Source of the DNA: Ruminococcaceae bacterium OttesenSCG-928-O06
GTDB taxonomy: Bacteria > Bacillota > Clostridia > Oscillospirales > Ruminococcaceae
NCBI GenBank assembly: GCA_030265505.1
Contig: JAJDGD010000007.1
Span: 1-42,828 of the forward strand
Length of the DNA stretch: 42,828 nucleotides
Direction: 5' to 3'
Shown here: positions 36,188 through 42,828 of the stretch, piece by piece
Layout: every line of letters begins with the position of its first letter
Position numbering within the stretch: the first letter of the stretch is position 1
Program-made: the position numbers and the translations under genes
The notes under the pieces: generated by a model
Told to the model about the DNA's origin: nothing
Databases searched by the model: none
Seen by the model: the letters and a program-made list of their open reading frames with translations, nothing else

Positions 36188-37345
36188 CTAGTCTTCCTCG
36201 GTCTCGGCCGTTTTGCCCGGCACCAGCTGGCGCTCTTCGTTAAAGTGCATGGGCTGCACGGTGTTGCGGGTAAGGCGCACCAGCTCCCGCAGGCGCTTTT
36301 CTTCGTCGGGCATGTACAAAATGTACGCAACACCCTCTTTTTTGGCGCGGCCGGTGCGGCCTATGCGGTGGGTGTAATATTCGTTGCTGGGCGGCACGTC
36401 ATAGTTTACCACGGCGTCCACATCGTCCACGTCTATGCCGCGGGCGGCAACGTCTGTGCTTACCAGCACGGGCAACTGGCCCTCTTTAAAGCGCCCCATA
36501 ATCTTGTTGCGCTCCGCCTGGGAGAGGTCTCCATGCAGGCAGTCCACGTCAAAGTTCAGCCGGGCCAGCTGGTTGGAAAGCATGCCCGTGGTGTATTTGG
36601 TGTTGCAGAACACCATCACCCGCTCGTACCCGCCGTTCACAATGATGGCGGCGAGGTCTGCCAGTTTGTTGCGCCCGGTGGTGAGGATGGAATACTGGGT
36701 GATGCGGGGCTGGCTGTCTTCCACCGGCTGCACGGTAATTTCCACGGCGTCGCGCTGGTACAGCCAGCCAATGTCCATCACCTCGCGGCTGATGGTGGCG
36801 GAAAACATGCCCAGCTGCTTTTTGTTTTTCAGGCTGTCCAGTATTTTGCGCACATCCTTGTAAAAGCCCATGTCCAGCATCTCGTCCGCTTCGTCCAGCA
36901 CCACGCGCACAACGCCGCCCAGCTGCACGGTGCGCCGCTGCATGTGGTCCAAAAGGCGGCCGGGGGTGGCTACAATAATCTGCGGGCCTTTTTTCAGCTG
37001 GTCGAACTGCTTTTTAATGTCCTGCCCGCCGTACACGCAGGCAATGCGCACGTTTGGCAGAAAATGTGCAAGCTCGCGTAAATCGCCGGTAATCTGCTGG
37101 GCCAGCTCACGCGTGGGGGCCAGCACTAGGGCCTGGGTGGTGTCGCTTTCGGCGTTCAGCCCCACCAAAAGCGGGATGCCGAAAGCACAGGTTTTGCCCG
37201 TGCCCGTGGGCGCCTTGGCAATCACGTCCTTGCCCTCCATCATGGGGGGCAGGGCTTTCTCCTGCACCTCGGTCATCTCGGTAAAGCCCATGCGCTGCAC
37301 GGCGTCTTGTATCTCTTTGGGTAAATCAATGTCTTGAAACAGCAT
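36188..37345 (-). CDS. DEAD/DEAH box ATP-dependent RNA helicase
   Basis: MLFQDIDLPKEIQDAVQRMGFTEMTEVQEKALPPMMEGKDVIAKAPTGTGKTCAF...VLDEADEML...SATI...[13 protein letters not shown]. Confidence 0.95.
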   Translation of the reverse strand: MLFQDIDLPKEIQDAVQRMGFTEMTEVQEKALPPMMEGKDVIAKAPTGTGKTCAFGIPLLVGLNAESDTTQALVLAPTRELAQQITGDLRELAHFLPNVRIACVYGGQDIKKQFDQLKKGPQIIVATPGRLLDHMQRRTVQLGGVVRVVLDEADEMLDMGFYKDVRKILDSLKNKKQLGMFSATISREVMDIGWLYQRDAVEITVQPVEDSQPRITQYSILTTGRNKLADLAAIIVNGGYERVMVFCNTKYTTGMLSNQLARLNFDVDCLHGDLSQAERNKIMGRFKEGQLPVLVSTDVAARGIDVDDVDAVVNYDVPPSNEYYTHRIGRTGRAKKEGVAYILYMPDEEKRLRELVRLTRNTVQPMHFNEERQLVPGKTAETEED

Positions 37346-37565
37346 GCTTGTGTGTGTCTCCTTTGTTGGTGGCAACAATATATAAAAATTTGTATAGACG
37401 TACTTTTTCGGTGTGCGCAGTCTGGCCCGCCGCAGGCGGTTGGCGTACGGCGCGGCCCTTGGCGTTGGCTGCCTTGTGGCGGTGCGCAAGGCGCCTGGCG
37501 GCATAAACGCCCCTATATTTTAGCACACACCCCGCCGCCACACAAGGGCGGTGCCACGGCGCTGC

Positions 37566-37641: not shown

Positions 37642-37998
37642 ATGAGGATAAGCGAGATCATCACAACGCTGGGGGCCGAGGTGCTTACCGAGGGGGCGGA
37701 TACTTCCCGCGAGGTGCACGCGGCTTGCGGCAGCGACATGATGAGCGATGTGCTGGCCTATGTGAAGGACCAGGGCGTGCTAATCACCGGGCTTACCAAC
37801 CCCCAGGTGGTGCGCACCGCCAGCATGATGGACATGGTGTGCATCGTGTTTGTGCGCGGCAAGCGGCCGGACAATACCGTGCTGCAACTGGCCGAGGAGT
37901 TTGGCATCATTGTGCTTGCCACCCAGCACACCATGTATAATACCTGCGGCATGCTGTATGAAAAGGGCCTGCACGGCGGCAACAACACCGCGCAATAG
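37642..37998 (+). CDS. DRTGG domain-containing protein
   Basis: MRISEIITTLGAEVLTEGADTSREVHAACGSDMMSDVLAYVKDQGVLITGLTNPQVVRTASMMDMVCIVFVRGKRPDNTVLQLAEEFGIIVLATQHTMYNTCGMLYEKGL; RBS GGAGG. Confidence 0.85.
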   Translation: MRISEIITTLGAEVLTEGADTSREVHAACGSDMMSDVLAYVKDQGVLITGLTNPQVVRTASMMDMVCIVFVRGKRPDNTVLQLAEEFGIIVLATQHTMYNTCGMLYEKGLHGGNNTAQ

Positions 37999-38034: not shown

Positions 38035-38457
38035 ATGCCCAACATCCATATGCATTACGTCGTCCCCGGGGACGACTTTACCCGTGCGGGCGAGGCCAGC
38101 GCGGATTTGAAGGCCCGGCTGAAAAAGCTGGGCATGCCCAGCGACGCCGTGCGCAAGGTGGCCATTGCCCTGTACGAGGGGGAGATCAACCTGGCCATCC
38201 ATGCGGGCGGGGGCGAAATTGAGGTGCAGGTATTTCCCGACAAGGTGGAGATGACCCTGACCGATACCGGCCCCGGCATCCCCGACATAGACCTTGCCAT
38301 GCGTGCGGGGTGGTCCACCGCGCCGGACGAAGTGCGCAGCCTGGGCTTTGGCGCCGGCATGGGCCTGCCCAACATGAAGAACTACGCCGATGATTTCGAG
38401 ATAGAATCTGAAGTAGGGGTGGGCACCCGTGTGTTTATGCGGGTGAACGTGGCGTAA
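38035..38457 (+). CDS. HATPase_c (anti-sigma/serine kinase-like) ATP-binding protein
   Basis: VRKVAIALYEGEINLAIHAGGGEIEVQVFPDKVEMTLTDTGPGIPDIDLAMRAGW...LGFGAGMGLPNMKNYADDFEIESEVGVGTRVFMRV: N and G boxes, no H-box. Confidence 0.9.
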   Translation: MPNIHMHYVVPGDDFTRAGEASADLKARLKKLGMPSDAVRKVAIALYEGEINLAIHAGGGEIEVQVFPDKVEMTLTDTGPGIPDIDLAMRAGWSTAPDEVRSLGFGAGMGLPNMKNYADDFEIESEVGVGTRVFMRVNVA

Positions 38458-38591: not shown

Positions 38592-39866
38592 ATGTCCGAT
38601 TATTTCCATTCCGTTACCCTTGACAAGGACGAATGCAAGGGTTGCATCAACTGCATAAAGCGCTGCCCCACCCAGGCCATTCGGGTGCGGGACGGCAAGG
38701 CCCACATCATCACAGAGCTTTGTATAGACTGTGGGGAGTGTATTCGCGTGTGCCCGCACCACGCCAAAAAGGCCATTACAGACCCCTTGTCCATCATGGA
38801 CAACTACCGCTACAAGGTGGCGCTTACCCCGCCCAGCCTGTACGGGCAGTTCAACAACATAGAGGACCCGGACCTGGTGTTTGCCGCGCTGAAGGACATC
38901 GGGTTCGACGAAGTATTTGACGTGGCGCGCGCGGCCGAGCTGGCCAGCGACGCCACCCGCCGCATGCTGGCCACCGGTGCCATGCCAAGCCCGGTCATCT
39001 CCTCGGCGTGCCCGGCGGTGCTGCGGCTGATACGCGTGCGCTTCCCCAGCCTGATAAACCGGGTGCAGCCGCTGGTGGCCCCGGTGGAGATTGCCGCGCG
39101 CATGGCCAAGGACGAGGCCGAAAAACGCGGGCTGAAGCGCGAAGAGGTGGGGTGCATCTTCCTTACGCCCTGCCCGGCCAAGGTGACGGCCATCCGCATG
39201 CCCATAGGCACCGCCACCAGCGACATTGACGCCGCCGTGGCCGTGAAGGATGTGTACCCGCTGCTGGTGGGCGCCATGAAGCACGCCAAAGACGAAGCCG
39301 AACGCCCCCAAAGCGGGCGCATTGGCATTGGCTGGGCCGAAAGCGGGGGCGAGGCCGCGGGCCTGCTTACCACCGACGCCTACCTTGCCGCCGACGGTAT
39401 CGAGAACGTCATCCGCGTGCTGGAGGACTTGGAGGACAACAAGTACGCCAACATCGAGTTTGTGGAGCTGGACGCCTGCAGCGGCGGTTGCGTGGGGGGC
39501 GTTTTGCAGGTGGAGAACCCCTATATCGCCAAGTCCAAAATCAAAAAACTGCGGCGGTATATGCCCGTAAGCATGAACCATCTGGAGGAGGATATCCCCG
39601 CCCACATGCTGTGGGATACCGACCTGGAGTATTCCCCGGTGATGGAGCTGGGGAAAACAAAGCAGGAAAGTTTTGAAAAATACGCCGAATTTGAAGATAT
39701 CATGGAAAAACTGCCAGATTTAGACTGCGGTAGCTGCGGCGCGCCCACCTGTGAGTCCTTCGCGGAGGACGTGGTGCGGGGCAACGCCGTGTTGGGAGAT
39801 TGCGTGGTGCTGATGCGTAAAAAGATGGAGGCCATATTGAAGGCGGCCGGCCTGGATGGAACGTAA
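38592..39866 (+). CDS. Sensory-type [FeFe] hydrogenase large-subunit-like protein with 2x[4Fe-4S] N-terminus and C-terminal Fe-S domain
   Basis: CKGCINCIKRCP and CIDCGECIRVCP; H-cluster motifs SSACPAVLRLI, TPCPAKV, DACSGGCVGG; C-terminal DCGSCGAPTCESFAEDVVRG. Confidence 0.92.
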   Translation: MSDYFHSVTLDKDECKGCINCIKRCPTQAIRVRDGKAHIITELCIDCGECIRVCPHHAKKAITDPLSIMDNYRYKVALTPPSLYGQFNNIEDPDLVFAALKDIGFDEVFDVARAAELASDATRRMLATGAMPSPVISSACPAVLRLIRVRFPSLINRVQPLVAPVEIAARMAKDEAEKRGLKREEVGCIFLTPCPAKVTAIRMPIGTATSDIDAAVAVKDVYPLLVGAMKHAKDEAERPQSGRIGIGWAESGGEAAGLLTTDAYLAADGIENVIRVLEDLEDNKYANIEFVELDACSGGCVGGVLQVENPYIAKSKIKKLRRYMPVSMNHLEEDIPAHMLWDTDLEYSPVMELGKTKQESFEKYAEFEDIMEKLPDLDCGSCGAPTCESFAEDVVRGNAVLGDCVVLMRKKMEAILKAAGLDGT

Positions 39867-40081: not shown

Positions 40082-40414
40082 ATGACCACCGATGATTTTG
40101 CCCAAATGCCCGATTTTACGGTGGCGGTGCCCGGCGAGAGCCGGCCGGTTGCCTCGGTGTACTGCGCCGATTTGCTGAGCTGGGCCATGGGCCGCGCGCC
40201 GGCAGACGCCGCCTGGTGCACTGTGATGGGCAACGTGAACGCCGTGGCCGTGGCCCACCTGGCCGATGTTGCCGCCATTGTGCTGTGCGAGGACGCCGTT
40301 TTGGACGAGGACGCCCGCGAAAAAGCGGCCCAACAAGGGGTAATCATTGTGCGCACGGGCTTGCCGGCCTTTGCCGCGGGGGTGGCCATTGCGCAGCATG
40401 CCGGGCTGCTGTAG
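40082..40414 (+). CDS. Second DRTGG-like domain protein
   Basis: PGESRPVASVYCADLLSWAMGRAPADAAWCTVMGNVNAVAVAHLADVAAIVLCEDAVLDEDAREKAAQQGVIIVRTGLPAFAAGVAIA; RBS TAGGAGG. Confidence 0.8.
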   Translation: MTTDDFAQMPDFTVAVPGESRPVASVYCADLLSWAMGRAPADAAWCTVMGNVNAVAVAHLADVAAIVLCEDAVLDEDAREKAAQQGVIIVRTGLPAFAAGVAIAQHAGLL

Positions 40415-40498: not shown

Positions 40499-41188
40499 GT
40501 GACATACGACCTCCACATCCATTCCTGCCTTTCCCCCTGTGCGAACGACGACATGACCCCCACCAACATTGCGGGCTTTGCCAAACTAAACGGCATTGAT
40601 TTGATTGCCGTGGCCGACCACAACAGCGCCCTAAACCTGCCGGCCACGGCCCAGGCCTGCGAGGCCTACGGGGTGCGGCTGCTGCCCGCCATAGAGATGA
40701 ACACGGCGGAGGAGATTCATCTTCTGTGTTATTTTGCCCGGGTGGAGGATGCCTTGGCCATGGGGGAAGCCATTTACGAAAACCTGCCCCGCTACCCCTA
40801 CGACCATGAAATTTGGGGCCGCCAGCTGGTGATGGACGCTGAGGAGAATACCATTGGCGAGGTGGACAAGCTGCTTACCGCCGCCTGCACACTGGATTTA
40901 TACGCCGCCAAAGCCCTGTGCGAAAAGCTGGGCGGCATTGCGGTGCCCGCCCATGTGGACAAAGAGAGCACCTCGCTGCTGTCTGTTTTGGGCTTTGCGC
41001 CCGAGGACCTGCCCTTTGCCGCCTATGAGGTGAAGCGGCCGGAGCATACCCTGGCCGCCCTGTGGGAGAGTGGCCGCCTGCCCGCCGGGGTGGAGATTTT
41101 GACCAGCAGCGACGCCCACAGCCTGGGCGAGATACCTGAGCACCCGCGCACGCTTTCCCCCCAAAGCTGCCTGTGGCGGCTGCTGTAG
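40499..41188 (+). CDS. PHP domain-containing phosphoesterase
   Basis: (GTG) TYDLHIHSCLSPCANDDMTPTNIAGFAKLNGIDLIAVADHNSALN...LLPAIEMNTAEEIHLLCYF...AVPAHVDKES...SSDAHSLGE. Confidence 0.93.
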   Translation: MTYDLHIHSCLSPCANDDMTPTNIAGFAKLNGIDLIAVADHNSALNLPATAQACEAYGVRLLPAIEMNTAEEIHLLCYFARVEDALAMGEAIYENLPRYPYDHEIWGRQLVMDAEENTIGEVDKLLTAACTLDLYAAKALCEKLGGIAVPAHVDKESTSLLSVLGFAPEDLPFAAYEVKRPEHTLAALWESGRLPAGVEILTSSDAHSLGEIPEHPRTLSPQSCLWRLL

Positions 41189-41371: not shown

Positions 41372-41548
41372 TTGGGCAGCCGCACCACGCCGGCGCCGGG
41401 CTCCCTTTCAAGAGAGAATTTCTTGCTCGAAGCCTAAAAAATGGCGAAGACAAACAGAAAGTTTGAACATATAGAAACAGACGACGAAACGGAACAACAA
41501 TTCTCCCGGCTGCGGCGCGGGACGCATAGAATGGACGGAAGCAAATAC

Positions 41549-42828
41549 ATGACCTTTCAGGATTTACAGCTTGACGCGCCCCTGTTGCGGGCAGTAAAAG
41601 AGGCGGGCTATGCACGGCCCACCCCCATACAGCAAAAAGCCATTCCCCCGGTGCTGGCCGGGCGGGACCTTTTGGGCTGCGCCCAAACCGGCACCGGCAA
41701 AACCGCCGCCTTTGCGTTGCCCATATTGCAGCGCCTGGCGGCAGCGCCTATTCCCCAGGGGAAGGGGCGCTTGCCGCGCGCGCTGGTGCTTACCCCCACG
41801 CGCGAGCTTGCCCTGCAGATAGAGGAGAGCTTTGTATTGTATGCAAAGCACCTGAAACTGCGCAGCGCCGTAATTTATGGCGGGGTGGGGCAGGCGCCCC
41901 AGGTGCAGCAGCTAAAGGCGGGCGTGGATATTTTGACGGCCACCCCCGGCCGCCTGAACGACTTGATTGGCCAGGGGTATATCAAACTTTCGGCCATTGA
42001 GGTGTTTGTGCTGGACGAAGCCGACCGCATGCTGGACATGGGCTTTGTGAACGACGTGAAAAAGGTGATAGCCCACCTGCCCGCGCAGCGGCAAACGCTG
42101 CTTTTTTCCGCCACCATGCCCGGGGAAATTGTGCAGCTGGCAAACAGCCTGCTAAAAGACCCGGTGAAGGTGTTTGTTACCCCGCCTGCCACCACGGTGC
42201 AGGCCATTGCCCAGCAGCTGTACGGGGTGGAAAAGGCCGACAAACGCAAGCTGCTGGCCCAGCTGCTGCAAGCAGGCGACGTGCAAAGCGCCCTGGTGTT
42301 TACCCGCACAAAGCACGGAGCCGACCGCGTGGTGCGCGATTTGAAGCGCGACGGCGTGGCGGCGGCGGCCATCCACGGCAACAAAAGCCAAACTGCCCGG
42401 CAAACGGCCCTGGCCCGCCTGAAAAAAGGCGAGATACAGGCCCTTGTGGCCACAGACATCGCCGCGCGGGGCCTGGATATCAACGAGCTGTCCCATGTGT
42501 TCAACTACGACTTGCCCAATATCCCCGAGACCTATGTGCACCGCATTGGCCGCACCGGGCGGGCGGGCCACGGGGGCATTGCCGTAAGTTTTTGCACGCT
42601 GGACGAATACCCCTACCTGTTGGACATTGAAAAGCTGATAGGTTTTGCCTTGCCCCGCGCAGAGGGGCACCCCTGGCACCTGCCGCTGCCCACCGGCGCC
42701 GCGCCGCAAAAGGCCCCGGCCCCCAAAACCGCCGGCAGCGCCGCCCGCACCAAGCAAAAAACTACTGCGCCCGCCGCGAAAAACCAGCAGAAACCCGCGG
42801 CCAAGGCGCAGGAAAAGCCTGCCGCAAA
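41549..42828 (+). CDS. DEAD/DEAH box helicase (RhlE-like), truncated by the window end
   Basis: Not in the ORF track because no stop is reached. [55 protein letters not shown]...[13 protein letters not shown]...SATMPG...[13 protein letters not shown], then Lys/Ala/Pro tail. In-frame ATGs at 41441 and 41531 are alternative starts. Confidence 0.95.

Follow-up and report, generated by a model that had tools for sequence, protein, structure and literature searches.

The open reading frame at positions 38592 to 39866 (+ strand) of the window, by which we mean the whole analyzed stretch of 42,828 nucleotides, encodes a protein of 424 amino acids whose domain order, ligands, relay residues, and clade, all read from sequence, show it to be a group D (M2e) [FeFe] hydrogenase-like protein, HydS. 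This protein type is already characterized, and the motif pattern is the published group D signature rather than a new one. With a probability of about 0.72, we read the protein as a cytoplasmic HydS of the TamHydS type (Thermoanaerobacter mathranii) that would carry an H-cluster, turn over H2 slowly, act as an H2 or redox sensor, and signal via an adjacent ATPase. The part with some novelty is a five-gene cassette around HydS, which the earlier note on this DNA did not mention: complete in 41 of 45 loci, it offers concrete candidate partners for signaling by a putatively sensory [FeFe] hydrogenase.

The N-terminus of HydS holds Fer4 domains for two ferredoxin-type clusters, with eight cysteines spanning C15 to C54. 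It is followed by the H-domain (Fe_hyd_lg_C, residues 76–303, positions 38817 to 39500; 100 bits against a Pfam cut-off of 22) and a C-terminal FeS domain (PF04060, residues 374–405); the Pfam scan of HydS gave no PAS domain. All motifs listed in the earlier note are present in the open frame: L1 as SSACPAVLRLI from residue 137 (SSACP, 39000 to 39014, containing A139 at the relay position and the ligand C140), L2 as TPCPAK from residue 192 (39165 to 39182; T192, ligand C194, K197), L3 as ELDACSGGCVGG from residue 292 (39465 to 39500; E292, ligands C296 and C300), and CGSCGAPTC from residue 379, which is a portion of a complete Cx2Cx4Cx16C [4Fe-4S] motif formed by C379, C382, C387, and C404 (39726 to 39803). 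The ligands C140, C194, C296, and C300 match C300, C355, C499, and C503 of CpI, which we take to be the equivalent ligands there, and the proton-relay C299 of CpI corresponds to A139. The nearest solved structures by sequence are the group A enzymes of D. desulfuricans, HDCR HydA2, and CpI, all of them distant, and AlphaFold2, run on the window HydS together with three related proteins, returned a poor model (mean pLDDT 56), which was set aside.

Conservation was assessed in an alignment of 127 strong group D-like proteins, one per genome and including the window HydS. The four ligand cysteines are each kept in 127 of 127, so the earlier claim that the H-cluster ligands remain is borne out, as is the replacement of the relay cysteine by alanine: position 139 is Ala in 115 proteins, Ser in seven, another residue in five, and Cys in none. 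Because the ordered motif set appeared in none of 200000 residue shuffles and the four cysteines are invariant, it cannot be put down to chance. Six of the N-terminal cluster cysteines are likewise invariant, and the other two are each kept in 126 proteins, a gap replacing C15 and a Ser replacing C18 in one protein each; at the C-terminal cluster C379, C382, and C387 are Cys throughout and C404 is Ser in a single protein. Position 192, corresponding to M353 of CpI, is Ser or Thr in 126 of the 127. The altered motif pattern is not unusual: of 391 genomes from the class of the host, 237 gave a relative at E ≤ 1e-20 in a protein search, a number that includes weaker, non-group-D matches. A scan of the genome contigs gave four loci, two of which are true HydS. 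One relative has an in-frame TGA, which we rejected as a selenocysteine candidate because it lies near the end of the frame (position 414 of the window protein).

The relay position is not simply vacant. For TamHydS, a group D-specific proton path E252-E289-S249-D265 has been proposed and is backed by mutants of E252 and E289 (PMC10407848). It is matched in the window HydS by E254-E292-S251-D268 (S251, E254, and D268 at 39342 to 39395), an equivalence derived from published numbering, primer-derived peptides, motif, and spacing rather than from the full TamHydS sequence. E292 is kept in 127 of the aligned proteins, E254 in 118, and D268 in 106, while the S251 position is Ser or Thr in 102; one or other of the TamHydS peptides SGGE252AFGTF and DFFE289GLAC occurs exactly in ten of the 127. 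Charged residues described as conserved across a set of 70 group D proteins (R30, R32, K35, K58, D378, E392, D393, and D403 in TamHydS; PMC13104023) have equivalents in R31, R33, K36, K59, D378, E392, D393, and D403 of the window HydS, each kept in 104 to 127 of the 127 rows. A divergent active-site variant combining E254Q and K197R, with Asp or Ser at position 139, occurs at five loci (L164, L166, L084, L086, and L162).

HydS is the central gene of the cassette, which lies on the + strand in the order DRTGG, SpoIIAB-like ATPase, HydS, second DRTGG-like gene, PHP. The first gene (37642 to 37998) encodes a DRTGG-domain protein of 118 aa (PF07085, E 1.2e-11) and has a GGAGG-type ribosome binding site ahead of its ATG at 37642. 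The second (38035 to 38457) encodes a HATPase_c protein of 140 aa (PF02518/PF13581) resembling anti-sigma F/SpoIIAB, for which the best model is TIGR01925 (E 4.6e-15, under its cut-off); its motif residues E48, N52, D77xGxG81, and G104-x-G106-x-G108-x-G110 reach a conservation of 97% or more across 41 rows. Downstream of HydS, a protein of 110 aa (40082 to 40414, preceded by AGGAGG) has no Pfam hit alone and matches the first DRTGG family in a profile comparison (probability 99.3, E 4.8e-20). The last gene (40499 to 41188) encodes a PHP-domain phosphoesterase-like protein of 229 aa (PF02811, at its cut-off) in which H6, H8, D40, H41, E66, H74, and H152 show conservation of 97% or more across 39 rows.

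Across the 45 HydS loci, the upstream pair of DRTGG and ATPase genes is present in 43, the second DRTGG gene in 42, and the PHP gene in 41. The corresponding counts are 31, 30, and 29 in the first 31 stretches, which include the window and one stretch that stops at a contig edge, and 12 each in the further 14, where two stretches of 4.2 kb contain none of the four partner genes; loci L003 and L004 may share a species with some of the other genomes counted. Of the first 31 stretches 22, and of the further 14 two, also contain hydA, taken as a sign of hydABC. A group A hydrogenase operon beside HydS, a tendency of group D and not part of its definition, is absent from the window, where no hydABC lies downstream of the cassette and a DEAD-box helicase gene follows its end at 41188. 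DEAD-box helicase genes flank the cassette on both sides (36188 to 37504, − strand; 41441 to 42826, + strand), the second running off the contig end. Our literature searches, in the portions of the sources they covered, returned no description of DRTGG or PHP partners and, as neighbors, an ATPase and group A genes only: near the TamHydS gene an ATPase and an AraC gene are mentioned (PMC8163306), and in Thermoanaerobacter a histidine kinase gene and a group D-like gene lie upstream of bifurcating hydrogenases (PMC3608648).

These observations fit a sensory function in which HydS would carry an H-cluster built by HydEFG, turn over H2 slowly via the E254/E292 route, and work as an H2 or redox sensor. 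With less certainty, the SpoIIAB-like ATPase might read a conformational change of HydS and act on one or both DRTGG proteins, and the PHP protein might be the enzyme that gives the output or resets the system. What is regulated would probably be hydrogenase expression or activity, because roughly half of the stretches examined have hydABC next to the cassette. A change in secondary structure upon exposure to H2 is described in the TamHydS literature; in vivo H2 sensing by a group D protein was not found in those parts of the literature that were searched. The earlier view of a low-turnover sensor rather than a catalyst agrees with the published view of group D in its functional part, but its premise of a lost relay has to give way to a relay replaced by glutamates. 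The further suggestion that the C-terminal cluster carries the redox signal is not upheld: the account available for TamHydS describes this cluster as not reduced by H2 and the activity of the C379A variant as wild-type-like, which makes the cluster an unlikely redox carrier (PMC13104023). A more specific scheme would be a partner switch with HydS as its input: the ATPase (38035 to 38457), as a Ser/Thr kinase governed by HydS and its H2 or redox state, would phosphorylate a serine of the two paralogous DRTGG proteins, the PHP protein would make the output, and in some lineages the switch may work without HydEFG; we consider this scheme doubtful. The sole, weak pointer to the putative DRTGG phosphorylation is an invariant serine that the two families share at equivalent alignment positions, S35 in the first and S45 in the second (counted in the reading frame from 40046, that is, S33 from the ATG at 40082).

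HydS might instead be a genuine if slow metabolic hydrogenase, giving electrons to the other products of its operon or taking electrons from them. The ferredoxin-type clusters and the conserved proton path are in line with such a role, and so is the report that TamHydS works in either direction and has a low Km for H2. However, the specific activity published for TamHydS is very low (PMC10407848), and the cassette partners are of signaling type (ATPase, DRTGG, and PHP), with no gene for an electron-transfer subunit among them. We therefore regard a metabolic role as unlikely and retain the sensor as the preferred reading.

Whether HydS carries a diiron subsite at all is touched by the distribution of the maturases. 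The host genome, 63.8% complete, yielded no HydE, HydF, or HydG over cut-off and no group A HydA; at this completeness, their absence says little. A broader picture came from 131 genomes that are near-complete and contain a HydS-type match (first set, 75; second set, 56, with stricter listing thresholds): HydG and HydF are both present in 102, one only in seven, and neither in 22 (G015, G063, G101, G252, G319, G339, G374, G375, G383, and 13 others). This repeated absence is noteworthy, and hydrogenase-like genes without maturases are reportedly also described in a paper on the formate dehydrogenase of C. acidurici. The absence of HydF and HydG would suit a HydS that has only ordinary [4Fe-4S] clusters, including the cubane, and would sense redox poise, for example of the ferredoxin pool, rather than H2. 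Nine of the 22 genomes were tested for HydE and have none over cut-off, all 22 keep the four HydS cysteines, and they include two of the 16 genomes in the first set that consist of a single contig, so that fragmentation does not fully account for the absence. Against this stand the 102 genomes with both maturases and the group A hydA genes with intact motifs, found wherever hyd loci of maturase-less genomes were read, whose products should need the same maturases. Moreover, the diiron-facing residues are not relaxed: E254 is altered in 3 of the 22 genomes compared with 4 of 93 (p 0.13), and among 14 independent pairs the trait is the same in 13.7 on average; S251 or D268 is altered in 14 of 22 versus 29 of 93 (p 0.007), a difference that the tree-aware pair test does not bear out (median p 0.45). 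Relaxed constraint in maturase-less genomes, which we had considered, was thus dropped. Since group A HydA is retained and the HydS tree requires 17 changes of the absence label, the absence may reflect incomplete assembly or recent loss. Missing assembly, recent loss, and a role without the diiron site are all possible causes of the HydF/HydG absence; a HydS that works without the diiron subsite strikes us as improbable, and the H-cluster-bearing sensor is kept.

Among the loci with the E254Q/K197R variant, L164, L166, and L084 lie in maturase-less genomes, and L162 lies in one with both maturases. Four genomes (G142, G370, G228, and G069) have HydE and HydF but no HydG over cut-off, and the HydS of G069 also has altered sites (STLCP, TECPAK, and NGQ); for several Clostridium acetogens with HydE and HydF, HydG is likewise reported as not found (PMC9431212). 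Another contig of the host genome (C58) encodes at L001:484-2451 (− strand) a protein of 656 aa that has a methyl-accepting chemotaxis domain in addition to two Fer4 domains, Fe_hyd_lg_C, and FeS, which corresponds to the putative HydDB type C2, "chemotactic", and reads QPCP in L1.

Group D (M2e) proteins are described as lacking the relay cysteine and a PAS domain while having intact ligands and a C-terminal Cx2Cx4Cx16C (PMC8163306), and the window HydS combines these features with Thr at the M353 position and the group D proton path. The group A model TIGR02512 scores 83.7 bits against a cut-off of 405.95, with A139 at the relay position, and the PAS domain that follows the C-terminal cluster in group C (M2f) is lacking. 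A quick tree of 55 rows, in which the A, B, and C labels were assigned from motifs and domains and the group C branches are very long, places the window HydS within the group D clade (SH-aLRT 100), apart from the rows of the other groups. That HydS is a group C (PAS-type) or a group A or B hydrogenase after residue loss is thus most improbable: its top NCBIfam hit by E-value is indeed the group B1 model TIGR04105, but at 127.2 bits against a cut-off of 450, no PAS domain is found, the tree sets the rows apart, and decay is disfavored because conservation is uniform across the 127 proteins.

Among known systems, TamHydS, an enzyme of low activity named putatively sensory (PMC10407848, PMC8163306), is the closest counterpart: both proteins share the domain order, the C-terminal Cx2Cx4Cx16C, the lack of PAS and relay cysteine, Ser or Thr at the M353 position, the path residues, and an adjoining gene for a histidine kinase-like ATPase. 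They differ at the position of CpI M497, which is Asp in the window HydS and Leu in TamHydS, and in one inserted residue, T260, which is absent from 42 of 43 rows; the spacing from E254 to E292 is 38 residues compared with 37 in TamHydS. Moreover, the window has DRTGG and PHP genes as neighbors, whereas an AraC-type regulator is named for TamHydS. TmHydS from Thermotoga maritima (group C/M2f) likewise has N- and C-terminal Fe-S clusters, has lost the relay cysteine, and is putatively sensory, but it contains a PAS domain and other residues at both Met positions; the window HydS is free of PAS and follows group D. The bifurcating HydA (group A3; A. woodii HydA1, 7q4v) shares the H-domain family, and its operon often adjoins HydS; it is nevertheless only a distant match that keeps the relay cysteine (TSC) and the Met residues of L2 and L3 and has a longer H-domain. 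Its L1 reads TSCSPGW in related neighborhoods (e.g., L070:12239-13975) as in A. woodii HydA1, so the motif TSCCPxW, given earlier as canonical, is not universal in group A; in TSCSPGW a Ser stands where CpI has a ligand Cys. Finally, the cassette differs from the SpoIIAB/RsbW partner switch in having DRTGG instead of STAS proteins, no sigma factor, and a phosphorylation that is putative here, and resembles it in the ATPase, which fits the SpoIIAB model best, and in the gene order of a small protein followed by the kinase.
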